Below, piece by piece: positions 39,089 to 53,842 of a DNA stretch of 64,000 nt. The stretch lies in the NCBI RefSeq assembly GCF_031583025.1, contig NZ_CP134062.1:5739234-5803233 (forward strand). The letters are read 5' to 3'. A program made the translations under genes and the position numbers. The notes beneath the pieces are model-generated. The model was not told the origin of the DNA, ran no database searches, and was given only the letters and a program-made list of their open reading frames with translations. Within the stretch, counting starts at the first letter, position 1, and every line of letters begins with the position of its first letter. The stretch is from Mycobacterium sp. Z3061 (GTDB taxonomy: Bacteria; Actinomycetota; Actinomycetes; Mycobacteriales; Mycobacteriaceae).

Positions 39089-41704
39089 CTACTCAAATCG
39101 GCGATGCGACACCAGCGCGGCGAGTTCCTCGCGGGTGGTGGTGCCGGTTTTCGACATCGCCCGGTAGATGTGGCTTTCCACGGTGCGTACCGAAAGTGTC
39201 AGCCGGTCAGCGACCGCCCGGTTGGACAAACCCGCACCGATGAGCATGACGATCTCCCGCTCCCGATCGGTGAACGGCAGCGGTTCGCATGCCTGGCGAC
39301 GCGCTGGAGTCGACACCCCGCCGCACTGCTCTGCCAAGGCATCCGCCCTGGCCGCACAGCCCAGGGCCGAGCCCCGTAACCCCTGGTTGCGGTACGCGAC
39401 GGCGGCATGGGCGGCCGCGTCGATCGCGGCAATGTGGTCACCGACCTGTTCGAACTCGTCTGAGGCCGCGGCGAGCCCACCCGCGTCGCCCGAATTGAGA
39501 GCGGCCGAGAAGCGCGCCGCGATGCCGACCCGCGGTCCCTCGACGACCGCTTCGAGCTCATTCAACCTGGCTGCGCCCGAGCGGTCGCCAAACTGGGCGG
39601 CGGTCTGCAGACACAGCACTTCCGCCCCGAATTGCCCTTTCGCCGAGGCCTTTTGGGCCGTAGCCAACGCGATCGAGATCGCCTCGGAGACGGCGCCCTG
39701 GACCGCAGCCACCCACGCCCGCGCCAAACCGCGCTCGTAGTCCAGCGACCGGAAAGGGCGATGCTGTTTGTCCAACGCGGCGAGCTCGGCAGTCGCCTGC
39801 TCGACGGATCCGCTGACAGCCAGGGCAGTGACCCGGCAGATGTCGTAGCGGTATCCCCAGCCCAGCGCGTGCGTGGCGGTCAGTCCTACCACTGCACTTT
39901 CCAGCAACGGACCAGCGGATTGCATATTTCCCGCTCCGAGTGCGGCCCTACCCCTGATCGCGGCACCCAGCAATTGAGCAGCCCCGGGCATGTCGGCCGC
40001 CCGGCGGCTCACCCACTCGGCCACCTCAAGTGCCTCCGAAATTCGGCCCGCCAACAGCAGCGCGCTCACGTGCGAATCCGCGATGTTGAACGCCATCTGC
40101 GGTGCGTCGAAAGAGCGAGCCGCACTGGCATATCCGGCCTCCGCGAGAGCCGATGCTTCCCCGGCTCGTCCGGCGTCCGCGCTTATCGTGGCCAGGACCC
40201 AGGCGATCTCGGCGCCGACGACCGCGGGTAGCTCGGTCAGTACCAGACTCTTCGAGGCGCGCAGCGCACCATCCGGTTCGTCGGTCGCGAACCAGTAGAC
40301 CGTGAGGAAGGCATCGATATAGCTACGCACCTGTGATGCTGCGGTCCGCGCCGCATCGTCGATGATCGCTTTCGCGTGCGCCGGGTCACCCAGCGCCCAC
40401 AGCACGTTGCTGGCCCGCAGGAATGCAAGTCGGGCGCGCTCTACGTCGGTTAACAAGCTGACGTCGATACCGGCCAGCACCGCGTCGGCGTCGGCGCCCC
40501 GGCCCAACCAGGAAAGTGCATGCGCGCGAACAAAACTCGCTTCGGCACCCGCACCGGCACGGACCGCGGCGTCACCAAGTCGATCCGCCAGCGGCAAATC
40601 CGCCAACCAGACGGCGCCGTGCGCCGCGCTGACGAGGAGTTCCGGGTCGGGTGTGAGATCGGACTCCAGACTCAGGGTGGCGCGGCGCACCACGACCTGG
40701 ATGTCGTCGCTGCCGTCGCACGCGGCGAGTTCAGCGGCTACGAGTCCGCGCAATCGCCTCAGCCGGGTCGACGGCGCGCGCCGTCGGCGCACCTCACCGT
40801 AAAGCGGGTGCGCCAAGCGCACCTGCACACCGCCGTCGGACGACTCGAGAGTGATAAGGGCACGCGTGTCGGCCTCCTCTATCGCCACCGGGTCAGCGAT
40901 GCGCCTCAGGTGCGACAGCTCGACTGGCTCCCCGACAGCGACCACGTCAACCACGTCGCTGACCGGCGCCGGCAGGGCCCCGATACGGGCTTCGATCAAC
41001 TCGACCAGTCCGGGCGGCATGACGGGATCGCCCAGCCAGCGCCAGTAGCCGTCCCGGCGGACGATTCGCCGATCTGCGACCTCCTGCTCGACGATATTGC
41101 GCAGATACAACAGGTTGCCGCGGGTGAGCCGCCAAAGTCGCTGAGTGGCAATCGGATCCACGGGCCCGCTCAGAGTGGCTGAGAGCAGCGAACCGGTTTC
41201 CTCGAGCGACAACGGCTGCAGGTCGATTCGTTCGAATTGGCCGATCCCCCAGATCTCCTGCACCGCAGCTGGAATGGGGTCACCTCCGCGAACGGTGAGC
41301 AACACCTTCGCGGCTCCCCGCTGCACAACCTGGTGAAGCACGAAAATCGAGAGCTCGTCCAGCAATTGGACGTCGTCGACGGCCAGTACCACGGGAACAC
41401 CAGGCGGCGCGGCCGTCAGGGCTTCCATCACGGCGCGGGGTAACTGCACGACGTCGTTGACTCCCGGCTGCGCCCACTCGGTAAAGGCGCCCAGCGGAAT
41501 CGCCCGGGCCGCCGAGGTGCCGACGGCCCATCGGCCCTCGCAACCCCTGGAAACGGCTGCAGACAGCGCTTCACGAGCGATCCGACTCTTACCGACCCCC
41601 GCTGGACCGCAGACGACGACGCCGGGGGTGTCCGAGGCCGCAAGGGCAGCTTTGATGATCCGCAGCTGCTCCAAGCGGCCCACCAGCGGCCACGACAAGC
41701 GCAC
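39089..41704 (-). CDS. LuxR-family ATPase regulator (LAL type, Rv0890c-like)
   Basis: 871 residues. The N-terminal STAND/AAA ATPase has Walker A GPAGVGKSR (~34-42) and Walker B VVLAVDDVQLLDE (~105). The middle ~500 residues are helical repeats. The C-terminus is a LuxR helix-turn-helix, LPFTDREREIVMLIGAGL then NRAVADRLTLSVRTVESH. Large ATP-dependent LuxR regulators respond to ligands or partner proteins and activate target promoters. M. tuberculosis carries Rv0890c, of similar size and type, at the corresponding place beside citA (from memory). Divergent from the first PE gene; the acyltransferase-like gene follows it. Confidence 0.92.
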   Translation of the reverse strand: MRLSWPLVGRLEQLRIIKAALAASDTPGVVVCGPAGVGKSRIAREALSAAVSRGCEGRWAVGTSAARAIPLGAFTEWAQPGVNDVVQLPRAVMEALTAAPPGVPVVLAVDDVQLLDELSIFVLHQVVQRGAAKVLLTVRGGDPIPAAVQEIWGIGQFERIDLQPLSLEETGSLLSATLSGPVDPIATQRLWRLTRGNLLYLRNIVEQEVADRRIVRRDGYWRWLGDPVMPPGLVELIEARIGALPAPVSDVVDVVAVGEPVELSHLRRIADPVAIEEADTRALITLESSDGGVQVRLAHPLYGEVRRRRAPSTRLRRLRGLVAAELAACDGSDDIQVVVRRATLSLESDLTPDPELLVSAAHGAVWLADLPLADRLGDAAVRAGAGAEASFVRAHALSWLGRGADADAVLAGIDVSLLTDVERARLAFLRASNVLWALGDPAHAKAIIDDAARTAASQVRSYIDAFLTVYWFATDEPDGALRASKSLVLTELPAVVGAEIAWVLATISADAGRAGEASALAEAGYASAARSFDAPQMAFNIADSHVSALLLAGRISEALEVAEWVSRRAADMPGAAQLLGAAIRGRAALGAGNMQSAGPLLESAVVGLTATHALGWGYRYDICRVTALAVSGSVEQATAELAALDKQHRPFRSLDYERGLARAWVAAVQGAVSEAISIALATAQKASAKGQFGAEVLCLQTAAQFGDRSGAARLNELEAVVEGPRVGIAARFSAALNSGDAGGLAAASDEFEQVGDHIAAIDAAAHAAVAYRNQGLRGSALGCAARADALAEQCGGVSTPARRQACEPLPFTDREREIVMLIGAGLSNRAVADRLTLSVRTVESHIYRAMSKTGTTTREELAALVSHRRFE

Positions 41705-41817: not shown

Positions 41818-41903
41818 CTAATCCCCAGCCGCCAGTTCACGTGAGGCTTGGCTGAACGCCCCGGCCGGTCCGGTGCGCCACGATGAGTAGTTGGGGGACA
41901 GAC

Positions 41904-43469
41904 ATGTCGTACGTGACGGCAGCACCGGAGCTGATAACCGCGGCCGCAACGGATTTGGCCGCTATCGAGTCGACGCTCACCGCGGCCAACACAGCCGTGA
42001 CGGCCCAGACTACGGCCGTCCTCGCCGCGGGAGCCGATGAGGTGTCGGCAGCCGTCGCCGCCTTGTTCTCCAACCACGGCCGGCAGTACCAGGCGCTGAG
42101 CGCCCAGGCGACGCGGTTCCACGATCAGTTCGTGCGCATCCTGGCAACCGGCGCCACCTCGTACGCCAGCGCGGAGGCCGCCGCCGCCCGGCCCCTGCAG
42201 AGCCTGCTCGACCTCGTCAACGCGCCTTTCGTGACCCTGACCGGGCGTCCGCTGATCGCTAGCGGCGCCGACGTCACCGCGCGGCCCGGACCCGCTGCAA
42301 GTGTGCAGGAGCTGCTGGCCAACCTGGGCCTGGGCAACAAGGGGACCGCCAACGTCGGCAACGGCAACACTGGCAACGGCAACTTCGGCAGCGGCAACAC
42401 CGGTGATTCGAACTTCGGCGGCGGCAACGCCGGCAACGCCAACATCGGCAGCGGCAACACCGGCAGCCGAAACTTCGGCTCCGGAAACATCGGAGACGGC
42501 AACTTCGGCTTCGGGAACGTCGGCACCAACCTTTACGGCCCGGGCGCTAATAACGTGGGGCTGGGCAATACCGGTAACGACAACATCGGCCTGGGAAACA
42601 GCGGCAACGGAAACCGGGGCGGCGGAAACACCGGCAATTTCAACAGCGGTGCCGGCAACACCGGCAACAACAACACCGGATTCGGCAATACCGGAAACAA
42701 CAACATCGGGATCGGCCTCACCGGCAATAATCAGGTGGGCATCAACCTGGCGGGACTGCTGAACTCAGGCAGCGGCAACATCGGATTCGGAAACTCCGGT
42801 ACCAATAACATCGGGCTCTTCAACTCCGGCAGCGGCAACATCGGGCTTTTCAACGCGGGCACTAACCTCGGACAACTGCCGGGCATCCACAACAACATCG
42901 GCATCGGAAATTCAGGCGCCGGCGGTTTCGGCCTCGGCAACACCGGGGCCCTGAACACCGGTATCGGGAACGCCGGCGTCGTCAACACCGGCTTCGGGAA
43001 CTCCGGCAACTACAACACCGGTATCGGAAACGCCGGCACCGTCAACAGCGGCTTCTGGAACGCCGGTGACTACAACACGGGTAACGGGAATCCGGGCGAC
43101 ACGAACACCGGTCTGGGGAATTCGGGTAACGCCAACACTGGCATCGGATCCACCTTCGACACCGGTCTTTCCAGCTCGGGCTTCAACAACACGGGAACCA
43201 ATGTGTCGGGCTTCAACAACACCGGCTCACAGATGTCGGGCCTGCTCAATACCGCCAAAGGCGGCGGCATCGTGAATCACGGAATTTCGGGCATCTCGAA
43301 TTTGGCCACCGGCGGGTCAGACATCAACGGCCGGATGTCGGGCTTCTTCAACACCGCCGTCACCGCGGCGATCGGGGGCCAACCGATCGGCAAGGTGAGC
43401 GGCTACGACTCGGGCTTATTCAACTTCGGCACGGGCATCGCGGGCTTGTTCAGCCTCGGTCGCCTGTGA
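41904..43469 (+). CDS. PE-domain protein with MPTR-like pentapeptide repeats, copy 1
   Basis: 521 residues from ATG at 41904, supported by GGGGGA 6 bases upstream; the frame opens 7 codons earlier without support. Residues 1-~95 are a PE domain (MSYVTAAPELITAAATDLAAIES), followed by YASAE (~91), which fits the YxxxD/E type VII secretion signal. From ~130 on, the protein is tandem NxGxGNxG pentapeptides of the kind normally attached to PPE domains, rather than the GGA/GGN repeats of PE_PGRS. The end (SGLFNFGTGIAGLFSLGRL) resembles PPE-MPTR termini. Expected to be exported to the cell surface. Paralogous to the next gene. Confidence 0.92.
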   Translation: MSYVTAAPELITAAATDLAAIESTLTAANTAVTAQTTAVLAAGADEVSAAVAALFSNHGRQYQALSAQATRFHDQFVRILATGATSYASAEAAAARPLQSLLDLVNAPFVTLTGRPLIASGADVTARPGPAASVQELLANLGLGNKGTANVGNGNTGNGNFGSGNTGDSNFGGGNAGNANIGSGNTGSRNFGSGNIGDGNFGFGNVGTNLYGPGANNVGLGNTGNDNIGLGNSGNGNRGGGNTGNFNSGAGNTGNNNTGFGNTGNNNIGIGLTGNNQVGINLAGLLNSGSGNIGFGNSGTNNIGLFNSGSGNIGLFNAGTNLGQLPGIHNNIGIGNSGAGGFGLGNTGALNTGIGNAGVVNTGFGNSGNYNTGIGNAGTVNSGFWNAGDYNTGNGNPGDTNTGLGNSGNANTGIGSTFDTGLSSSGFNNTGTNVSGFNNTGSQMSGLLNTAKGGGIVNHGISGISNLATGGSDINGRMSGFFNTAVTAAIGGQPIGKVSGYDSGLFNFGTGIAGLFSLGRL

Positions 43470-43615
43470 GCTCGGGAAATTCCGGAGAACTCCTGATACG
43501 TCGCGGCCAGGTACCCGACGTTCGCGCCGACATTCTTCCCGTCGCTGCCGCCGTCGTCAGAACCTCCGGTGCACACGCACGGTGCTCACGATTGAGAGCA
43601 CGTTTTGCACATTGA

Positions 43616-43632
43616 TTTAGGTAGTTGACTAC
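43616..43632 (+). promoter_or_regulatory. Element shared by the two PE-MPTR promoters, copy 2
   Basis: TTTAGGTAGTTGACTAC contains the palindrome GTAGT-TG-ACTAC (43621-43632). It lies in the 282-base gap between the two PE genes, 119 bases before the second start. The rest of 43470-43751 shows no gene. Confidence 0.45.
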
Positions 43633-43751
43633 TCAAGCCCACTTCGTCGGCGCGGATGAATCTGTATTCGACAACCGGTCCCAAACCCGGGGTAACCGGG
43701 AAGAGCAGCACCGCAGTGCATGTCAAACCACGCGTCAGGAGTTGGGCAGTT

Positions 43752-45257
43752 ATGTCATTCTTCATTGCGACACCCGAGTTGATAGCCACGGCGGCAACGG
43801 ATTTGGCCGCCATCGAATCGGCGCTCAGTGCAGCCAACGCCGCCGCGGCCGCGCACACCACGGCCGTGCTGGCCGCTGGCGCCGATCAGGTGTCGTCAGT
43901 CGTCGCCGCTTTCTTCTCGACCCATGGCGAGCAATATCGAACGCTCAGCGCCCAGACAGAGCAATTCCACAACCACTTCGCACGACTTCTGGCCGCTAGC
44001 GCCGGCACGTACGCCAGCGCCGAGACCGCCACTGCCGCCGGACTCGGCCAGGCCGCGGCACCGACCGCAGCCACCCAACCCGGGCCTGCGGCAAGCCTTC
44101 AGGAAACGCTGGCAAACCTGGGCCTGGGCAACAAGGGCGCGGCCAACGTCGGCAGCGGAAACACCGGCAGCAGCAACCTCGGCAACGGGAATTTCGGCAA
44201 CCAGAACATCGGGAGCGGCAACGCCGGTAACACCAACGTGGGCATTGGGAACACTGGCAATGGAAATGTCGGCGCCGGGAACCGAGGTGACGGCAACGTC
44301 GGCTTCGGCAACGGCAACTCGATCGCGGGTAACCCCGGCAAGAACAACGTCGGGATGGGTAACGGCGGCAGCGACAATATCGGCTTCGGCAACAGCGGCG
44401 ACGGGAACCGCGGCGCAGGAAACACCGGAAATCACAATACCGGCGCCGGAAACAACGGTAATTTCAACATCGGCTTCGGCAATACCGGCAACAACAACTT
44501 TGGAATTGGACTCACCGGCAACCAACAGTTTGGCATCAACCTGGCCGGTTTGCTGAATTCGGGCAGCGGCAACATCGGATTTGGCAACTCAGGCACCAAC
44601 AACATCGGCTTTTTCAACTCCGGCGACCACAACGTCGGAATCTTCAACTCGGGCACCAACGTCGTAATCCCGGGCGCCCCGAATAACTTCGGAATCGGTA
44701 ATTCCGGCGTCGGTAACTTCGGACTAGGCAACACCGGCGCCCTCAACACCGGTATCGGAAATGCGGGCGGCGTCGAGACCGGCTTCGGCAACTCAGGCGT
44801 GTTCGACACCGGGATCGGGAACGCCGGGATGACCAACACGGGATTCTGCAACTCGGGCGTCGGCAACACTGGATCCGGAAATTCCGGCAAATCGAACACG
44901 GGCTTCGGAAATGCGGGCAACCTGAACACCGGCCTCGGGTTCGCCACTGACAGTGGACTGCCGAATTCGGGCTTCAATAACACCGGGATCCGCGTCTCGG
45001 GCTTCGGAAATACGGGCAACTACAGCTCGGGTTTTTTCAACACAGTTGTAGGGAATTCACAGGGGAACTCGGGTTTCTCGAATTTTGCGGCAGACGCTTC
45101 GGGTATCAGCGGCAGCATGTCGGGGTTCCTCAACACCGGCGTGCCAACCGCCTTCCCCTTCTTGGGCCAACCCCCGGGCTTCTACAGCGGGTACACCTCC
45201 GGGTTGTTCAACACGGGCGCCGCCATCGCCGGGTTATTCAACCTTGCCCGGCGGTAA
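43752..45257 (+). CDS. PE-domain protein with MPTR-like pentapeptide repeats, copy 2
   Basis: 501 residues from ATG at 43752, with AGGAG 9 bases upstream; the frame opens 32 codons earlier without support. PE domain (MSFFIATPELIATAATDLAAIES) and YASAE export motif match copy 1 closely. The junction PGPAASLQETLANLGLGNKGAANVGSGN is also shared with it, followed by ~370 residues of NxGxGNxG repeats and a similar C-terminus (SGLFNTGAAIAGLFNLARR). The tandem arrangement points to local duplication. The giant regulator gene starts 61 bases downstream on the same strand. Confidence 0.92.
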   Translation: MSFFIATPELIATAATDLAAIESALSAANAAAAAHTTAVLAAGADQVSSVVAAFFSTHGEQYRTLSAQTEQFHNHFARLLAASAGTYASAETATAAGLGQAAAPTAATQPGPAASLQETLANLGLGNKGAANVGSGNTGSSNLGNGNFGNQNIGSGNAGNTNVGIGNTGNGNVGAGNRGDGNVGFGNGNSIAGNPGKNNVGMGNGGSDNIGFGNSGDGNRGAGNTGNHNTGAGNNGNFNIGFGNTGNNNFGIGLTGNQQFGINLAGLLNSGSGNIGFGNSGTNNIGFFNSGDHNVGIFNSGTNVVIPGAPNNFGIGNSGVGNFGLGNTGALNTGIGNAGGVETGFGNSGVFDTGIGNAGMTNTGFCNSGVGNTGSGNSGKSNTGFGNAGNLNTGLGFATDSGLPNSGFNNTGIRVSGFGNTGNYSSGFFNTVVGNSQGNSGFSNFAADASGISGSMSGFLNTGVPTAFPFLGQPPGFYSGYTSGLFNTGAAIAGLFNLARR

Positions 45258-45318
45258 CCCTTTCGGCGCGCTGTCCCTTTACCCGATCTTGACCGCGCGT
45301 TGATTCGCCTGTCCGACG

Positions 45319-48300
45319 ATGACGGACGTGACTACCCTTCAAGGCGTGGAACTGGGGGTTCTGGGGCCACTTCAGGTTCGGCAGGCCGGCGCGCCCGTCG
45401 TCATTCCGGGCGCCAAGCCACGCGCTCTGCTCACCATGCTGGGCCTTCACAACGGTGCGCTGGTACCGGCCGAGACACTTCTCGAGTTGCTGTGGGGCAC
45501 TGAACCGCCCCGCACCGTCGCCAAAGCCCTGCAAACCCACATATCCGCCCTGCGACGAACCCTGGGCGAGGGACTGGTTCTCACCGAGGGCACGGGCTGG
45601 AAGCTGGCCGCCACCGACGTCGATGCCACGGCATACCGCTCGGCCGCCCGACGGGGACGCGAGGCCGTCGCCGCCGGCGACATGACCCAGGCGGTGGCCC
45701 GGTTCGACGAGGCTCTCGCGCTGTGGCGGGGAGTGCCCGAACTGCCCGAGAGCCGGCGGGGAACCGCGGAGAGGACACGGTGGATCGAAGGCCATGCCGC
45801 CCTGGTGGAGGACCGCGCCGATGCCTTGCTCGCCACCGGCCGCGCCGCGGAGATCATCGGCGAACTCGAAACCGCGGTGGCCGATGCGCCGCTGCGCGAG
45901 CGGCGATGGGGGCAGCTGATGCTCGCCCTCTACCGCGCCGGCCGGCAGGGCGAAGCGATCGGCGCTTACCGGCGCGCCAGGACGCTGCTAGCCGAGGAAC
46001 TGGGAATCGAGCCCGGAGCGGAGCTACGCCGGCTGGAGACCGCGATCATCGCACAGGATACCGCACTCGAAGTCCCTGGCGCACAGGATGTTTCATCGGT
46101 GATGCGGGCCGTGACGTTCCTGCTGACGGATATCGAGGGATCCACCGCCGCCTGGGAGGCAGACGCCGTCGCCATGGCAACGGCGCTGGCACGCCACGAC
46201 GAGCTCGTCGAACAGATCGTCACATCCCGTGGCGGACGGCTGATCAAGACCCGAGGCGAGGGCGATGCCACCTTCTCGGTCTTCGACCGGCCGTCCTCGG
46301 CTGCCGCGGCCGCCCTTGAACTGCAGGACGCAATCGCCCGTGAGCCGTGGGCCCTGGCGGATCCCATGCGTATACGGGTGGCATTGCACACCGGTGAGGC
46401 CGAGCTTCGCGACGGCGACTACTTCGGGCGGGCGGTCAACCGCGCCGCGCGGCTGCGGTCACTGGCGGCCGGCGGTCAGATCCTGTGCTCAGGAGCCAGC
46501 GCCGAACTTGTCATCGACTCCCTGCCCGACGATGTGGCGCTCACTGACCTGGGGATGCGCCAGTTGCGCAATCTCGCGCGCCCGGAACACGTCTTCGAGC
46601 TCCGACTGCACACCACCCAGGACCGTTCGGCGCGGGACTCCAGCGACCTTCCCCTGCAGCGCCCGCCCCTACCGACGGCACTTGCGGGGCCCGGCCCGTT
46701 CGTCGGCCGTGCCAGCGAACTCGAGCGACTGTTTGCCGATTGGCAGTCGGCGTTGACCGGCGGCGTCAACGCCGTACTGATTGCCGGCGAGCCAGGTGTC
46801 GGCAAGACGCGGCTGGCCGGAGAATGGTCGCGGCTGGCCTTTGACCACGGCGCCATCGTCATTTACGGACGTTGCGACGAGGACCTCGGCGCACCGTATC
46901 AGCCGTTCGCGGAGGCAATGCGTTCGCTGGTGCCCTGCCTCGGTGCCGCTCGTCTCCGCGGGCTGCGTGGCGTAGAAGCGTTGTTGGCTCTGGTGCCCGG
47001 ACTCGCCGAGACCCTGCCCGAACTCACCGCGCCGACGCGCGCCGACCCCGACACCGAGCGCTACGCATTGTTCGACGCCGTCGTCGCATTGTTGCGAGTC
47101 ACCTCAGCCAGCACGCCTGTGGTGCTGATCCTGGACGACCTGCACTGGGCGGCCAAGCCGACGCTGCTGTTGTTGCGCCATGTGCTGCGCTTCGGCGATC
47201 AGGCCCGCGTCCAGATCATCGGCACCTACCGCAGCACCGACCTCGACCGTACGCACCCGCTGGCCGCCATGCTCGCCCATCTGCACCGCGATGGCACCGC
47301 CCATCGCCTGCAACTCGGCGGTCTCGATGAGGACGATGTGTCCGCCTATGTCGCCGAGGCCGGCTACGACGACGAAGATCTGGCGCGTGCACTGGCATCG
47401 GTCACCGGCGGCAATCCGTTCTTCCTCATTGAGGCGTTGCGCCACGTCGACGAAAGCGGAGGGCATTGGGATGCGAACACGCTTCCGCAGGGAGTCCGGG
47501 AAGCGGTGAGCCGCCGGCTCTCCCGGTTGCCGGCGGAAACGAACAAGGCGCTCGCGGCCGCGGCAGTGGTCGGCAGCAGCTTCGCGGTAGATCTCGTCGA
47601 GCACGTGGTCGGACAGGACCTCGTCGACGCGTTCGACCAAGCCGCGCAAGCGGGCATCGTGATCGAGGAGCCCGGTGGCCGTTACCGGTTCAACCACGCC
47701 ATCGTGCGGCAGTCATTGCTTGCCGAGCTGGCTTCGGTGCGGCGCATGCGGCTGCACCAGCGGATCGCCGCGACACTGGAGGCACAGCCCGGCGCCGGCG
47801 ACGAACTGCTGGCCGAACTTGCTTACCACTTCTTCGAGTGCGCCTGGGCGGGCAACGCGGTCAAGGCCGTCGACTACTGCCGCCGGGCCGCGGACCAGGC
47901 GATGGCCCGCCTCGGCTACGAAGGTGCCGCCGAGCTTTACGATCAGGCTTTGCACGCGCTGCAAGAGATCGACGAAGAGCTGCCGGATCGTTCCGATCAG
48001 ACCGCCGAACTGTTGATCGCTCGTTGCGAGGCGCTGCTGGCGGCCGGAGACGTGGCGTCGGCGGCGGGCGCTGTCTCGCAATTACATTCGGCGACAGCAG
48101 ATTCCGATCAGTTAGCCGCATGGGCGACCTGCTTTGAAGGTCAGCTGGCGATGCTCATCCATCCGGAGCGGCTGGACGAGATCGAAGTCGCGTTGGGTTC
48201 GGCCGCCGAGAAACTGGCCGGCTTGCACGACGCGGCCGGGGAAGCCAAGGCCCACACCGTTCGAGCCGGATGTCTGGCCCGACTGGGGCGCATCGGCGAT

Positions 48301-51300
48301 TGTGAAGCAGCGCTCGATGATGCCCTCACGGCGGCGCGCCGCGCCCGTGATCACCGCCGGGTCAATGCGGTCCTGGCGGGTGCGCCACTTGCGGCGCTGT
48401 GGGGACCCAATCCCGTTGCGCGGGCCGGCGGGCGGTGCCTCGACGTGGTGCGGTTGCTGCGCATCACCAACGACTCCCCTGTTGTCGAAGCCACGTCGAT
48501 GCGGTGCCAGGCCGTGCTGGAGGCTTTCCGTGGCCGCACCGCCGCCGCGCGTCGCATGATCGACGCGGCCAGGCGCACGATCACCGATCTGGGCTTACGT
48601 CACGCGCTGCTCGAGGTCGAGCAGTTCGCCGGCATCGTCGAGCTTGTGGTCGATGACCCTGCCGCGGCTGAGGCGCATCTCAGGCTGGCCTACAACGGTT
48701 TCCGCCGTATGGGCCTCGACGCTGACAGCGCTGAGACGGCCGCCCTGCTGGGACGAACGTGTCTGGCACTCGGCCGCGAGGGCGAGGCCGACGAATTATG
48801 CACAGAGAGCGAGCGCCTGGCCGGCCATGCGCTCAAACCGTCGATCGCCTGGCGCACGCTGCGGGCCGAACTGCTCTGCCGCGCTGACCATCACGATGAG
48901 GCCGGGCGAATCGCTCAGGCCGCAGTCGATCTGGCCGACCGCACCGATTTGTTCGTCGATCACGGTGACGCGTGCCTGATATTGGCAACCGTCTTGCGCG
49001 CGGCCGGGAACGCGACGGAAGCACATGCCGCGGCCGAGCGGGCAGTCGGCCTGTACGAGCGCAAAGGTGCTGCGGCACTGACGGTAAAGGCCCGTGATTT
49101 TCTCGTCAACGACAAGAGCACCTCACCGGCTTCTGCCATTGGCCCATCCGTTGACTCGGACAATGCATGCATCACCGCAACTAATCGAGTCGCCGAGCTC
49201 AACGACATCCACTCGCGAATGGGGGGTTCGCAGTCAACCACACGTCACCTGGCAAACGCGGCCAGCCGCGTGGCCGACCAAGTCCAAACACATTTCGCAG
49301 CACGCGAATGGACCGCCATGAGCCGGTTAATGACCGAGGAGGTTTCGAGTCACGACCGGCGCCGTGTCGTCAACTCGGGGAATCGGATTGGGTGGGACGG
49401 CATGATCCAAGACGCGCTGTCCAACGCCGATCTCGGAGTTACCGAGGTGACGTCCACGATCGTGGCAACGCGTGGCGAGCGTCTCGCGCTTCGCCGCGGT
49501 CGCTATTCGGATGTCGCCCGCCCGAGTTCGTTCTACACCGAGGTGTTGAGCATCTATGAGATCGACCGCGACGGGCGGATCTCGGCGGTTGTAAACTTCG
49601 ACCTCGACAATTTCACCGCCGCTGTCACCGAACTCGACGCGCGGTACCTGGCCGGTGAAGCGGCGGCGTATGCGTCCACGTGGTCGGCGATCATCGCCGG
49701 TGTCGCAGCGCTCAACCGGCACGAGTTGCCCTCGACCACGGCGGACTTCGTCAATATCGACCACCGCCGGGTTGCCGCCTACCCGACGGGTGAAGTCATC
49801 GATTACGTTCGTGCCGGGTGGGACCTCGAGCAGAACATCCGAACCTACATCGAGGTTGTGCATCGGCTGAGCGACGTCGGTGCCGTCTATACCCATGTGG
49901 CACAGGGCAATTCTCGCGACGGCCTGGCAGCGGAGTGGCGGGGCGTCAGCCTCGTGATGGTCGACCACCACCTAGTGAGCCGCAGCGAGGTATTCGACGA
50001 GGAAGATCTTGACGCCGCGCTCGCGAAATTCGACCAACTGAGCCGCCCGGCCGCGACCTTGACGAACCCCGCAAGCCGCGCGTACCTGCAGGTGAATCGG
50101 TACTACACGTCAGGCGATTGGGTCGCACTGTCAAACATGTTGGCGCCGAACATCGTCGACAATGATCGTCGAAGCACGGTGAGCGCCGGCGTTCGACGTG
50201 GCCGCGATGTCGAACTCACCAATAGCCGGGCCCTGGCAGAGATCGGCGCCGATCAGCTGACCTCCGTCGTCATCGCGACGCGCGGCGAGCGCCTTACATT
50301 GTGCCGTTCGTCCCTGTCCGGGAAAGACGAGCGACCGGGTGGATTCCGCATCGAGTTTTTCAGCGTCGTCGAGATCGACGACGACCAGCACCTGGCGGCA
50401 CACGTCGCGTTCGATCCCGAGGATTTTGCAAGTGCTGCAGAGGAACTTGACGCACGATTCCTTGCCGGTGAAGCCGCCCGTCATGCGCCTACCTGGTTGG
50501 CGATCACCGAGACATTCGCCGCGCTCAATCGTCGGGAGCTGCCTCAAACCACGGACGATTGGGTGAATATCGACCACCGGCAAGGCACTTTCATCGCAGC
50601 CGGTCAAATTTCCGTCTTCATGCATGCTGCATGGGAGGTCGCGTCTCAGCTGAATCATGTACTGGTCGCCGTGAACCGACTGACCGACCTTGGAGCGGTC
50701 GTCACGTATATGTCGCACGAGACATCGCAGGAGGGCTTCACCGCCGAGTGGCGGGCGGTCATCCTCTTCACATACGCCGGCAAGATGGTCACTCGCTGTG
50801 AAGTTTTCGACGAGGAAGATCTTGACGCCGCACTTGCGAAATTCGATAGTCTGCAACGGAACACAGTGAGAATCCACAACGCGGCCAGCGACATGGGAGA
50901 GCGTTACCTGTCGCATTTCGCGGCCGGCGAGTTTGACGCCATGGCCGGACTATTGGCCGACGACTTCACCAGCGACGATCGGCGGTCGATGGTGGGGGCG
51001 GGAGTGCAGGGTGGTCGGGACGCCCAGATCGCCGACATGCGCGCAGCAGCCGGCATTTGGTCCACGGCAGTCATACCAGCCGTCCTGGCAACGCGAGGCG
51101 ACCGACTGGCCCTTGAGCGATTGCACTTCTCGCACGGCGCCGTTGTTCCCGAGGCATTCGTGACCGAGGTACTCGGTGTCATCGAGATCAGCGCGAGAAC
51201 GCAGATCGTCGCCGTAGTCTTCTTCGAATTCGACGACATTGACCACGCTTTCGCAGAACTCGAGAACCGCTACCTGGCCGGGGAGGCGGCGGCCCACGCG

Positions 51301-52506
51301 AAGACGTGGTCGCTCGTCGTGGACGCCTATGCTGCGCTCAACAGGCATGAACTGCCCACGGTGACTACGGACTGGGTCGACATCGACCATCGCCACGTGG
51401 TGGCCGTCGAGGAGGGCGATCTGGGCCGATCGCTCCGGGCGGTGTGGGATCTCGCGCCGGAGGCGACGATCCGCATCGAGGCGGTGCACCGACTGAGTGC
51501 GCGGGGAGCTGTCGTCACCCACTTCGTGCACGCCAGATCGCGCGAGGGTCTGGACGCCGAATGGCGTGAGATCAGTCTGCTGATGTTCGACGGTGACCAA
51601 TTCAGCCGCTGTGAAGTGTTCTCGGAGAACAAGATCGACGCCGCGATCGCCCGCTTCGACGACTTGCACTCTCGGCCGAAGCCTTTGGCGAGCGCTGCCA
51701 TCCGGGCGATGCACCGTTTACAGGCCCATTTCGCCGCTCGCGACTGGGCGGCGGTGGCCGGGGCACTGGCCGATGACATCTGCACCGACGATCGGCGACG
51801 TGTGGTCAACGGCGGGATCCGCCACGGCCGGGACGCCGAGATCGACGGTTTGCGCGCCGCTGCCGATGTCGGGACACGGAGCATCACGTCGACCCCGCTG
51901 GCAATCCGCGGGGAGCGGCTACTTCTCGGCCGATTTCGTTTCTCGGCGAAACACCCGTCGGCATTCCACTCTGAGATTCTCGGCGTTGCCGAGCTCGATG
52001 CTGACAACCGGGGAAAGACTTTGGTGGTCTTCGATGTCGACGACGTCGATGCGGCCTTCGCAGAACTGGACGCGCGTTACCTGGCTGGCGAAGCGGCCCC
52101 TTACGCGCACACCTGGTCGGTTATCAGCCGGGAATGCGCCGCATTCAACCGGCATGAACCACCCGCTGCGGAGTTCGTCACCATCGACCACCGGCGGCTG
52201 CTGAAGATGCCTACCGGCAATCTGATCGGCGACATCGAAGTCACCTGGGATCTGATGCCCGACGTCAGCGTCCGGATCGAGTCGGTTTACCGACTCACCC
52301 ATCTGGGAGCAGTCGCCGGCTACGTTGCGCAAGGCACTTCGCCGGAAGGCTTCGACGCCGAGTGGCGGATCACCTATCTCGTCACAATCGACGGAGAGCG
52401 CATCAGCCGCTGCGAAATCTTCGACGAAGCCGACCTCGACGCCGCGCTCGCGCGCTTCGACGAGCTCATGGTCCAAGACAAGGGCTCGGGGCCCTATACC
52501 GCATAA
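45319..52506 (+). CDS. Giant multidomain regulator: SARP/BTAD - class III cyclase - AAA ATPase - TPR - four double NTF2-like repeats (2,395 aa)
   Basis: Domains in order: an OmpR-type winged helix (~8-95) and BTAD (~100-245) as in SARP activators; a class III cyclase (~262-430, TFLLTDIEGS, KTRGEGDATF, GDYFGRAVNRAARL); an AAA/STAND ATPase with Walker A GEPGVGKTR (~491) and Walker B LILDDLHWA (~603); helical TPR-like repeats (~750-1270); then four repeats of ~271 residues (~1310-2395). The cyclase keeps both metal aspartates, the substrate aspartate and the Asn/Arg pair; the lysine position reads Arg. The tail repeats resemble SnoaL/NTF2-like ligand-binding domains. It probably couples ligand binding and cyclic-nucleotide or ATP chemistry to gene activation; this is inference. 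It overlaps the convergent MFS gene by 41 bases. Confidence 0.88.
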   Translation: MTDVTTLQGVELGVLGPLQVRQAGAPVVIPGAKPRALLTMLGLHNGALVPAETLLELLWGTEPPRTVAKALQTHISALRRTLGEGLVLTEGTGWKLAATDVDATAYRSAARRGREAVAAGDMTQAVARFDEALALWRGVPELPESRRGTAERTRWIEGHAALVEDRADALLATGRAAEIIGELETAVADAPLRERRWGQLMLALYRAGRQGEAIGAYRRARTLLAEELGIEPGAELRRLETAIIAQDTALEVPGAQDVSSVMRAVTFLLTDIEGSTAAWEADAVAMATALARHDELVEQIVTSRGGRLIKTRGEGDATFSVFDRPSSAAAAALELQDAIAREPWALADPMRIRVALHTGEAELRDGDYFGRAVNRAARLRSLAAGGQILCSGASAELVIDSLPDDVALTDLGMRQLRNLARPEHVFELRLHTTQDRSARDSSDLPLQRPPLPTALAGPGPFVGRASELERLFADWQSALTGGVNAVLIAGEPGVGKTRLAGEWSRLAFDHGAIVIYGRCDEDLGAPYQPFAEAMRSLVPCLGAARLRGLRGVEALLALVPGLAETLPELTAPTRADPDTERYALFDAVVALLRVTSASTPVVLILDDLHWAAKPTLLLLRHVLRFGDQARVQIIGTYRSTDLDRTHPLAAMLAHLHRDGTAHRLQLGGLDEDDVSAYVAEAGYDDEDLARALASVTGGNPFFLIEALRHVDESGGHWDANTLPQGVREAVSRRLSRLPAETNKALAAAAVVGSSFAVDLVEHVVGQDLVDAFDQAAQAGIVIEEPGGRYRFNHAIVRQSLLAELASVRRMRLHQRIAATLEAQPGAGDELLAELAYHFFECAWAGNAVKAVDYCRRAADQAMARLGYEGAAELYDQALHALQEIDEELPDRSDQTAELLIARCEALLAAGDVASAAGAVSQLHSATADSDQLAAWATCFEGQLAMLIHPERLDEIEVALGSAAEKLAGLHDAAGEAKAHTVRAGCLARLGRIGDCEAALDDALTAARRARDHRRVNAVLAGAPLAALWGPNPVARAGGRCLDVVRLLRITNDSPVVEATSMRCQAVLEAFRGRTAAARRMIDAARRTITDLGLRHALLEVEQFAGIVELVVDDPAAAEAHLRLAYNGFRRMGLDADSAETAALLGRTCLALGREGEADELCTESERLAGHALKPSIAWRTLRAELLCRADHHDEAGRIAQAAVDLADRTDLFVDHGDACLILATVLRAAGNATEAHAAAERAVGLYERKGAAALTVKARDFLVNDKSTSPASAIGPSVDSDNACITATNRVAELNDIHSRMGGSQSTTRHLANAASRVADQVQTHFAAREWTAMSRLMTEEVSSHDRRRVVNSGNRIGWDGMIQDALSNADLGVTEVTSTIVATRGERLALRRGRYSDVARPSSFYTEVLSIYEIDRDGRISAVVNFDLDNFTAAVTELDARYLAGEAAAYASTWSAIIAGVAALNRHELPSTTADFVNIDHRRVAAYPTGEVIDYVRAGWDLEQNIRTYIEVVHRLSDVGAVYTHVAQGNSRDGLAAEWRGVSLVMVDHHLVSRSEVFDEEDLDAALAKFDQLSRPAATLTNPASRAYLQVNRYYTSGDWVALSNMLAPNIVDNDRRSTVSAGVRRGRDVELTNSRALAEIGADQLTSVVIATRGERLTLCRSSLSGKDERPGGFRIEFFSVVEIDDDQHLAAHVAFDPEDFASAAEELDARFLAGEAARHAPTWLAITETFAALNRRELPQTTDDWVNIDHRQGTFIAAGQISVFMHAAWEVASQLNHVLVAVNRLTDLGAVVTYMSHETSQEGFTAEWRAVILFTYAGKMVTRCEVFDEEDLDAALAKFDSLQRNTVRIHNAASDMGERYLSHFAAGEFDAMAGLLADDFTSDDRRSMVGAGVQGGRDAQIADMRAAAGIWSTAVIPAVLATRGDRLALERLHFSHGAVVPEAFVTEVLGVIEISARTQIVAVVFFEFDDIDHAFAELENRYLAGEAAAHAKTWSLVVDAYAALNRHELPTVTTDWVDIDHRHVVAVEEGDLGRSLRAVWDLAPEATIRIEAVHRLSARGAVVTHFVHARSREGLDAEWREISLLMFDGDQFSRCEVFSENKIDAAIARFDDLHSRPKPLASAAIRAMHRLQAHFAARDWAAVAGALADDICTDDRRRVVNGGIRHGRDAEIDGLRAAADVGTRSITSTPLAIRGERLLLGRFRFSAKHPSAFHSEILGVAELDADNRGKTLVVFDVDDVDAAFAELDARYLAGEAAPYAHTWSVISRECAAFNRHEPPAAEFVTIDHRRLLKMPTGNLIGDIEVTWDLMPDVSVRIESVYRLTHLGAVAGYVAQGTSPEGFDAEWRITYLVTIDGERISRCEIFDEADLDAALARFDELMVQDKGSGPYTA
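49250..52470 (+). repeat. Four ~813-bp protein-coding repeats (double NTF2/SnoaL-like units)
   Basis: The marker HFAAREW and its equivalents start at 49291, 50101, 50914 and 51727, giving periods of 810, 813 and 813 bases. Each repeat has half A (DDRRxxVxxGxxxGRD ... ELDARYLAGEAA) and half B (NRHELP, DWVxIDHR, AEWR, RCEVFDEEDLDAALAKFD). The protein is conserved between repeats while the DNA has diverged, so the duplication is old. Confidence 0.85.
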
Positions 52507-53740
52507 AAGCCGGAGCGACGAGCGCCGCAACCAACACACCCGCCACCGCCAACGCCCCGCCGCCTGCCGCGGTTGCGGTCGTGCCCACCACCGCTGCCGC
52601 GGCCCCGTGCAGCGAGTCGGCCAGCCGAGGGCCTCCACCGACCACTACGGTGAACACCCCCTGCAGTCGCCCAACCAACTCGTCGGAGGCCGCCTCCTGC
52701 AGGATCGTCTGCCGGAACGCGGCCGACACCATGTCCGCCGCACCGCCCACGGCAAGGAACGCCACCGCCGCCCACAGCATCGCGCCCGCGCGCCCGTGCG
52801 CCATGCCGCACACCAACCCGAACCCCATCATGGCCAGGCCCCACACGATGATTGCGGCGACAATCGTCAGCCCCTGGCGCCTGATGCCGGGCAACCAGCC
52901 CGAGAACACACCGCCGGCCACCGCCCCGACGGATATCGCCGCAGCCAGCAACGCCATCGCCGACCCGCCCTCGATAGGACCGCCGAAGCTTTCGTGAGCG
53001 ATCTGCGGGAACAGCGCACGCGGCATGCCGAAGACCATGGCTATCAGGTCGACGACGAATGACATCAGCACCACCGTGTTCCCCGCCAGGTAGCGGAAGC
53101 CCTGCAGCACCGCGCCAATCCCCCAGCGCGCCTCGCCGGACGGCTCCAGCGACGGCATCGGCGACAGTCGGATCGTCGCCCAGATCGGCGCCAGGCAGGC
53201 CAGCGCGTCAACCAGATAGAGCGTGGAGAGGTCTACCCAGTTCAGCAGCAGACCCGCCAGCAGTGGGCCCACGATCGCCCCGAACTGTCCGACCGTCATG
53301 TTCAGGGCGTTGGCCGCCGGCAGTTGCTCACCCGGCAGCATCCGCGGGATCGCGGCCGACCGGGCGGGTGAGTTGACGGCGAAGAATCCCTGCTGCAGCG
53401 CCAGCAGACAAAGCACCACCCACACGTTGTGCAGGGCCAACGCGGCCTGCAACCACAACAACAGCGACCCCGCAGCCAGCCCGCACGCGGAGATGATCAG
53501 CAGCAGGCGCCGGTCCATGGCGTCTGACCAGGCACCGCCGAGCAGACCGAACACGATCAGGGGCACCAGCGCGAACAACCCGGCCAAGCCGACATACGCG
53601 GAGTTTCGCGTCAGCGCGTAGATCTGCACCGGGACAGCGAAGACCGTCAGGTTGGCCCCGATGACGGTCGGAATACCGGCCACCCAGAGTCTGCGGAAAT
53701 CAGTTGTGCGCAGGGGCGTGGTGTCCGCGAAGAGGGCCAT
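52466..53740 (-). CDS. MFS transporter (EntS-like efflux family)
   Basis: 424 residues from ATG at 53738-53740; the open frame upstream (to 53821) covers a hairpin region. About twelve hydrophobic segments are visible, beginning FRRLWVAGIPTVIGANLTVFAVPVQIY. The cytoplasmic loop GGAWSDAMDRRLLLI is the loop 2-3 motif of the major facilitator superfamily. NSPARSAAIPRMLPGEQLPAANAL is characteristic of the EntS/MFS_3 group that exports siderophores or drugs. The substrate is unknown. Its last 41 bases overlap the end of the giant regulator on the opposite strand. It lies downstream of pdxH on the same strand. Confidence 0.9.
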   Translation of the reverse strand: MALFADTTPLRTTDFRRLWVAGIPTVIGANLTVFAVPVQIYALTRNSAYVGLAGLFALVPLIVFGLLGGAWSDAMDRRLLLIISACGLAAGSLLLWLQAALALHNVWVVLCLLALQQGFFAVNSPARSAAIPRMLPGEQLPAANALNMTVGQFGAIVGPLLAGLLLNWVDLSTLYLVDALACLAPIWATIRLSPMPSLEPSGEARWGIGAVLQGFRYLAGNTVVLMSFVVDLIAMVFGMPRALFPQIAHESFGGPIEGGSAMALLAAAISVGAVAGGVFSGWLPGIRRQGLTIVAAIIVWGLAMMGFGLVCGMAHGRAGAMLWAAVAFLAVGGAADMVSAAFRQTILQEAASDELVGRLQGVFTVVVGGGPRLADSLHGAAAAVVGTTATAAGGGALAVAGVLVAALVAPAFMRYRAPSPCLGP

Positions 53741-53782
53741 CGTCGCCGAGCGTAGCCGGAACCCATCACGCACAAACGTGCC

Positions 53783-53842
53783 GCGAGCGTGACGCCAGGG
53801 TGGGTTTCGGCGCCAAATCACGCCCTGACCTCACGCTGGGCG
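53783..53842. terminator. Imperfect hairpin between pdxH and MFS gene
   Basis: The left arm around 53783-53802 (GCGAGCGTGACGCCAGGGTG) pairs with 53821-53842 (CGCCCTGACCTCACGCTGG) with about three mismatches, two of which can be G-U pairs. It lies just after the pdxH stop (53852). Similar GCGTGACGCCAGGGTG elements recur in mycobacterial intergenic DNA. It probably ends the pdxH transcript. Confidence 0.55.

Follow-up and report, generated by a model that had tools for sequence, protein, structure and literature searches.

A mycobacterial SARP-cyclase-STAND regulator with a conserved core and a variable tandem array of predicted NTF2-like domains

In the SARP-LAL regulators (PimR, SanG, and FilR), a SARP head is fused to a C-terminal half that is related to guanylate cyclases and large ATP-binding LuxR-type (LAL) regulators (PMC10972967). 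The SARP domain of AfsR binds as a side-by-side dimer and is inhibited by the NOD and TPR domains, an inhibition that ATP lifts (PMC10936776). Extracytoplasmic function (ECF) sigma factors are modulated by a SnoaL_2 domain fused to them (PMC7730460). Here, we analyzed a gene for a 2,395-amino-acid (aa) protein located in a 64,000-nucleotide (nt) stretch of Mycobacterium sp. Z3061 (contig NZ_CP134062.1, positions 5,739,234 to 5,803,233; referred to as the window). In this protein, a SARP head, a class III cyclase domain, a STAND ATPase, and a TPR region are predicted to be followed by an array of NTF2-like domains (Table 1). The comparisons with the known systems refer to excerpts of the cited sources. 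By these excerpts, the SARP-LALs are the closest described class. However, their cyclase-related half is without the cyclase N-terminal signature, whereas the window protein has a Guanylate_cyc match over the Pfam cut-off followed by an NTF2-like array, no such tail being mentioned for SARP-LALs in the excerpt (PMC10972967). AfsR and other large SARPs share the order of SARP, nucleotide-binding switch, and TPR, and AfsR chains match residues 10 to 256 of the window protein. They differ in that AfsR is about 1,000 aa long (chains of 993 and 1,013 aa) and the excerpt names neither a cyclase nor an NTF2-like tail for it (PMC10936776). The window protein is also not an AfsR equivalog, scoring 151 bits against the NCBIfam AfsR model NF053617, which has a cut-off of 1,430 bits. 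The ECF sigma factors resemble it in having an NTF2-like domain that is fused to a transcription factor and modulates it (PMC7730460). The difference is that they carry one domain on a sigma factor, whereas the window protein carries an array on a STAND switch.

Two further types of proteins are related in part. The same genome encodes four cyclase-STAND frames of about 1,110 to 1,160 aa, presumably with a LuxR domain at the end, whose cyclase domains are 47 to 52% identical to that of the window protein but which do not match its SARP or tail part. The second type is a zinc-ribbon-cyclase-STAND-TPR-SnoaL protein, represented by P0002 (genome G299) and P0003 (genome G010), for which no named family was found. 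The TPR regions of these two are 58% and 51% identical to that of the window protein, and their SnoaL_2 tails score over the cut-off (67.9 and 93.8 bits, respectively). However, they have a zinc-ribbon head and no SARP, and the cyclase is 32% identical in P0002 and without a match at 1e-4 in P0003. Neither the architecture nor the variable tail was found described in open-literature titles and abstracts, a scope outside which most subscription papers fall. An earlier mention of a BTAD-cyclase fusion is possible, since "BTAD" occurs twice in the excerpted text of a 2004 survey of actinobacterial cyclases (PMC2447327).

Table 1. Window coordinates of the regulator gene, its predicted parts, and the surrounding genes
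Feature	Residues	Window position	Strand	Basis or remark
Whole gene, 2,395 aa		45319..52506	+	Single open reading frame, ATG start
SARP DNA-binding domain (Trans_reg_C match)	33-84	45415..45570	+	Pfam
BTAD domain	101-243	45619..46047	+	Pfam
Class III cyclase domain (Guanylate_cyc match)	263-396	46105..46506	+	Pfam, residue check
STAND-type AAA_16 domain, Walker A and B	460-633	46696..47217	+	Pfam, residue check
Helical/TPR region	861-1265	47899..49113	+	Identity to zinc-ribbon-headed type
Tail unit 1		49255..50052 (A 49255-49662, B 49663-50052)	+	Repeat alignment, unit profile
Tail unit 2		50065..50862 (A 50065-50475, B 50476-50862)	+	Repeat alignment, unit profile
Tail unit 3		50878..51672 (A 50878-51288, B 51289-51672)	+	Repeat alignment, unit profile
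Tail unit 4		51694..52470 (A 51694-52095, B 52096-52470)	+	Repeat alignment, unit profile
Second PE gene plus regulator gene, absent in G041		43485..52495	.	Locus alignment
Two PE-family genes with pentapeptide repeats		41883-43469 and 43656-45257		Just upstream
MFS transporter gene		52466-53821	-	Convergent, 41-bp overlap with regulator 3' end
LuxR-type AAA_16 regulator gene		39089-41704	-	Several same-genome paralogues

The sequence-only reading of this DNA had proposed one uninterrupted frame that joins a SARP/BTAD head, a class III cyclase, and a STAND ATPase with Walker A and B motifs, and this was borne out. The genome consists of one contig of 6.79 Mb, and the four domains scored over their Pfam cut-offs, with 29.4 bits for Trans_reg_C (cut-off, 26.2), 129.5 bits for BTAD (cut-off, 22.1), 34.9 bits for Guanylate_cyc (cut-off, 21.9), and 94.6 bits for AAA_16 (cut-off, 32.6). 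The head thus has the winged helix-turn-helix (Trans_reg_C) followed by BTAD that marks a SARP, and EmbR and AfsR chains match it too. The Walker A motif GEPGVGKT occupies residues 490 to 497 and Walker B ends at D606-D607, which places both motifs of a STAND NTPase in an AAA_16-type domain. For the helical repeats that had also been proposed, TPR_12 (residues 1105 to 1164) scored 17.6 bits in the window protein, under the cut-off of 30.1, compared to 35.4 bits in P0002. A scan of genome contigs with an alignment of the core (residues 1 to about 1290) confirmed 197 relatives; the 80 best of them were retained, giving 79 named loci. These come from Mycobacterium, Mycolicibacter, Mycolicibacterium, or Mycobacteriaceae, and their cores are, among these best 80 of 197, 75 to 82% identical to that of the window protein. 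At 74 of the 79 loci, the core runs on into tail halves without a change of frame. Therefore, a misassembly or a joining of separate genes is unlikely and was rejected. Of the five loci without an in-frame tail, L072, L132, and L133 stop at or near the locus edge, and L079 and L144 are interrupted.

The tail of the window protein consists of four units of about 271 aa, each made of an A half and a B half, the units being 44 to 49% identical to unit 1. A unit profile built from other species only detected exactly these four units (residues 1313-1577, 1583-1847, 1854-2118, and 2126-2384), with 347 to 368 bits. When the window units were part of the profile, the highest score among 200 shuffled tails was 9.1 bits. 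A DNA tandem-repeat finder reported 0 arrays in the tail because the units are too diverged. The four tandem units claimed from the sequence alone are therefore true of the window protein but are not the number of the family, and a fixed four-fold tail was rejected. From 80 proteins (the 79 loci plus the window), 14 that run off or lie at the locus edge and 9 that are interrupted were dropped, leaving 57 complete proteins. These have 2 to 11 AB units, 5 to 23 halves, and lengths of 1,989 to 4,430 aa. The order A*(AB)n holds in 53 of the 57, and 4 are irregular; one of these, L146, has an additional A near the end (...ABAAB). The earlier description was also incomplete in that 54 of the 57 carry leading A domains (one in 46 and two in 8), whereas the window protein, like L134 and L143, has none. 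The leading A is a distinct subfamily, with ESRRK in place of the DDRRR of A, and matches A by profile at an E value of 2e-33. One relative, taken over its whole length, is a stop-free frame of 4,949 residues with 27 halves. In nine of the 79 loci (L073, L079, L112, L116, L119, L127, L128, L144, and L149), the array is interrupted in the core or the tail and units continue downstream, and in these loci pseudogenes, sequencing error, and switching are indistinguishable. At L129 (14445-15288), more tail halves lie about 3.9 kb past the gene end, perhaps as a second copy.

The units had been read as double NTF2-like domains, which applies directly to half A and indirectly to half B. Half A is NTF2/SnoaL-like by profile: of 45 A halves, 35 match SnoaL_2 at E ≤ 0.01. 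In the window protein, half A scores 18.5 to 18.8 bits (18.5 for the first A half), below the Pfam cut-off of 27, compared to 83.3 bits over four stretches in a Mycobacterium kyorinense relative; three relatives in all are over the cut-off. The PDB profile matches of half A (E ≤ 5) were mostly SnoaL, NTF2, or epoxide hydrolase by name, with a best E value of 0.061 and none significant alone. The sole PDB match of half B was a designed TIM barrel (E value of 0.00027, summed over repeats). However, A and B match each other in a profile-profile comparison (89.5% probability; E value of 2e-6), and they have a common acidic C-terminal stretch (FDxDDxDAA and FDExDLDAA). Half B is thus probably a divergent copy of A. 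Since only the profile-profile match ties B to A, the eight ligand cups that had been suggested for the window protein are no more than plausible. Over 110 units chosen for diversity, several motif columns are ≥90% conserved, for example, DRR in A and DHR in B. Together with a pooled tail ratio of nonsynonymous to synonymous substitution rates (dN/dS) well below 1, this indicates that a fold is maintained.

What the initial description missed is that change is much faster in the tail than in the core. The sample contained 463 AB units, and their mean identity was 47% within proteins and 46.7% between proteins. For 451 of the 463, the nearest unit lies in a different protein, and frequent homogenization within arrays was rejected on these grounds. 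The nearest unit of a first unit was another first unit in 51 of 73 cases. In pairs of proteins with 95 to 97% core identity, the unit numbers were 9/7, 7/10, 10/6, 11/10, 9/7, and 10/12, and the best unit identities ranged from 0.45 to 0.94. In three such plotted pairs, 45-codon windows of the tail ranged from about 0.5 to 0.99 in DNA identity, with abrupt steps that often fall inside units, whereas the core windows had a mean of 0.91. Across 16 pairs, window identity had a standard deviation of 0.02 to 0.05 in the core, compared to 0.05 to 0.15 in the tail. Ten of the 16 pairs had a sufficient number of tail windows exceeding 0.85 DNA identity, which were judged orthologous. For these pairs, dN/dS averaged 0.249 in the tail, compared to 0.086 in the core; the filter favors conserved windows, and the pairs share proteins. 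Near-duplicate segments (≥85% DNA identity) were found within 5 proteins, at spacings of about 1, 2, 3, or 5 units. Recent exchange between distant species, defined as proteins with core identity below 0.88, was rejected, as only one reciprocal pair with ≥92% DNA identity was found among 3,018 windows of 90 codons. Paralogues within a genome (five pairs with units, core identity of 0.79 to 0.87) had no common unit above 0.60. Unequal in-register recombination combined with divergence and differential loss would leave such a pattern. The variable number and content of units between close relatives suggest a quickly diversifying sensor.

The core shows the opposite behavior. Cores could be aligned for 71 proteins, namely the window protein and those of 70 of the 79 loci; the rest were too short or had no anchor motif. 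The 22 positions checked (11 in the cyclase, 7 in the Walker motifs, and 4 in the head) are all invariant in 71 of 71. With the low mean dN/dS, this means that the core is under strong selection. Class III cyclases use two metal-binding aspartates, a lysine and an aspartate that specify the purine, and a transition-state asparagine and arginine. D271, D367, N374, and R378 occupy positions that we take to be required in these enzymes. Most of the catalytic residues are therefore kept, as had been proposed, and one Lys/Asp pair is ambiguous. The ambiguity arises at the loop K310-T-R-G-E-G-D316, which is two residues longer than that of Ma1120. In a HMMER alignment to Ma1120, K310 falls at the lysine and E314 at the second metal aspartate; in an alternative alignment that keeps the spacing to D316, R312 falls at the lysine position, so that the pair could be either K310/E314 or R312/D316. 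None of the 71 cores departs from D271, D316, D367, N374, R378, or the loop residues, which argues for a function of the predicted cyclase domain.

In a sample of 248 genomes of the genus, 110 (counting the window's own) contained tail units, with at most 10 candidates scored per genome. In a phylum sample of 396 genomes, 7 contained them: the window's own, those of five congeners, and G299, whose kinship is at the phylum level only. Ten matches from nine other genomes of the same genus have cores that are 75 to 81% identical, in open frames of 2,156 to 4,152 aa. The TPR profile matched more widely (36 of the 396 phylum genomes at E ≤ 1e-20, the window's own and congeners included). The ancestry comparison covered 15 selected proteins, several of which are truncated or may be in a wrong frame owing to a longest-frame rule. 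Three additional frames comprised two of a zinc-ribbon-like cyclase-STAND-TPR type without the tail and one SARP-STAND-TPR frame without the cyclase. Because the core identities are mosaic and the heads varied, heads have probably been exchanged on a TPR chassis, with the NTF2-like tail present in some branches. A 2,486-aa protein of another species of the genus (L162:3760-11220) has zinc ribbons, a cyclase, AAA_16, TPR, and a SnoaL-like array of a different repeat sequence.

The reading we favor, with about even confidence, is that of a SARP-LAL-like one-component STAND regulator in which a recombining NTF2-like array is the sensor and the SARP and cyclase outputs are coupled. The N-terminal SARP domain would bind DNA and recruit RNA polymerase, and the cyclase domain would produce a cyclic nucleotide as a dimer, the form in which class III cyclases act. 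The STAND ATPase and the helical arm would keep both inactive. The C-terminal A*(AB)n chain would sense a small molecule or a protein partner, the binding of which would free the STAND clamp; ATP would then bind, protomers would pair, and the SARP and cyclase would turn on together. Gating of the cyclase, ATPase, and DNA binding by the tail, as the sequence-only reading had it, would be consistent with what the excerpt reports for AfsR (PMC10936776). In-register recombination between units would alter the array, and therefore related strains would carry different repertoires on one conserved switch. Domain order, residue invariance, repeat anatomy, copy-number variation, and mosaic divergence are read from the sequences; we infer recombination as the cause, a ligand-binding sensory tail, an active cyclase, and coupled outputs. 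We hold only tentatively the further proposal of a recombination-diversified NTF2-like recognition repertoire (up to 27 halves and 4,949 residues) on a near-unchanged switch, by which members of a population would have different sensor sets with the same outputs. If the array is a sensor, mycobacteria possess a naturally diversified set of NTF2-like binding modules on one switch, sensor diversification by repeat recombination becomes directly testable in bacteria, and cyclic-nucleotide signaling and SARP transcription are joined in a single chain. Even with a scaffold tail, the near-frozen core compared to the mosaic tail is an evolutionary puzzle.

Several observations weigh against the sensor reading. 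SnoaL_2 matched half B at E ≤ 0.01 in only 3 of 45 cases. In one of the 10 dN/dS pairs, L095/L125, the value for the tail equals that of the core (0.08). The ratio of nonsynonymous (pN) to pooled synonymous (pS) differences exceeded 1 in just 2 of the 264 columns of a unit, as calculated from 22 and 31 codons, and clear positive selection at unit columns was rejected; selection on the tail thus appears relaxed or weakly diversifying rather than clearly positive. The interrupted arrays in 9 of 79 loci fit a partly dispensable tail. One canonical cyclase residue is replaced in either alignment, and therefore the activity and the nucleotide choice are uncertain. This last point, along with the longer loop and the precedent of the SARP-LALs, whose related half is described in the excerpt as being without the cyclase signature (PMC10972967), is what would be expected if the cyclase were a catalytically dead dimerization module and the protein a pure transcription factor. 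We regard this as possible and rather unlikely. The invariance of the catalytic and loop residues in 71 of 71 cores speaks against it, as does the fact that other class III cyclases, e.g., Rv0386, are active even though a specificity residue is replaced.

If the tail were a scaffold or spacer that tolerates changes in length under relaxed constraint, its units turning over by unequal recombination with little effect on function while the STAND-TPR part reads the signal, this would explain the wide copy-number range at a constant core, a dN/dS that in the tail is roughly three times the core value with no clear sign of positive selection, the interrupted arrays, and the lack of the gene in G041, a genome of the same species. 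This reading is harder to reconcile with DRR and DHR motifs that are conserved over diverse units, with a dN/dS far below 1, or with the strict order of 53 of 57 arrays, and we consider it doubtful. Presence and absence within a species, at least 5 genomes with two cores each, and a fast-changing modular tail on a STAND chassis might also suggest an array that recognizes phage or competitor proteins, like the NLR/Avs-type STAND sensors, and diversifies in an arms race. Yet the only defense profile matched was one weak ATPase (E value of 0.0065), on which a known defense system was rejected; no defense neighbors were seen among the flanking clusters, whose products were not systematically annotated; positive selection is not clear; and the head is a transcription activator, not a known toxic effector. 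A defense role therefore seems improbable. The least probable alternative, and a very improbable one, is a catalytic array in which the halves are enzymes (SnoaL-type cyclases, hydroxylases, or epoxide hydrolases). The weak PDB matches of half A, mostly to SnoaL-like and epoxide hydrolase entries (best E value of 0.061), and the highly conserved charged motifs would fit such an array, but the fusion to a regulator and the random loss and gain of units favor binding.

No partner gene was widely common around the regulator: the commonest flanking cluster occurs in 13 of 79 loci, with flanks under 1.5 kb skipped, and a widely conserved partner was rejected. The flanking genes other than the MFS gene are clade specific. 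In G041, 184 unaligned nt replace window positions 43485 to 52495 at the matching locus, and the second upstream PE gene is missing together with the regulator. This genome gave no tail unit and no TPR-plus-tail match, the latter an empty result that is weak alone; the full protein does match in G000. The Mycobacterium asiaticum loci L102, L115, L128, and L134 retain the regulator gene near the same MFS gene, and thus a loss in G041 is likelier than a gain. The match of the MFS transporter in G041 covers residues 2 to 446 and contains one internal TGA.
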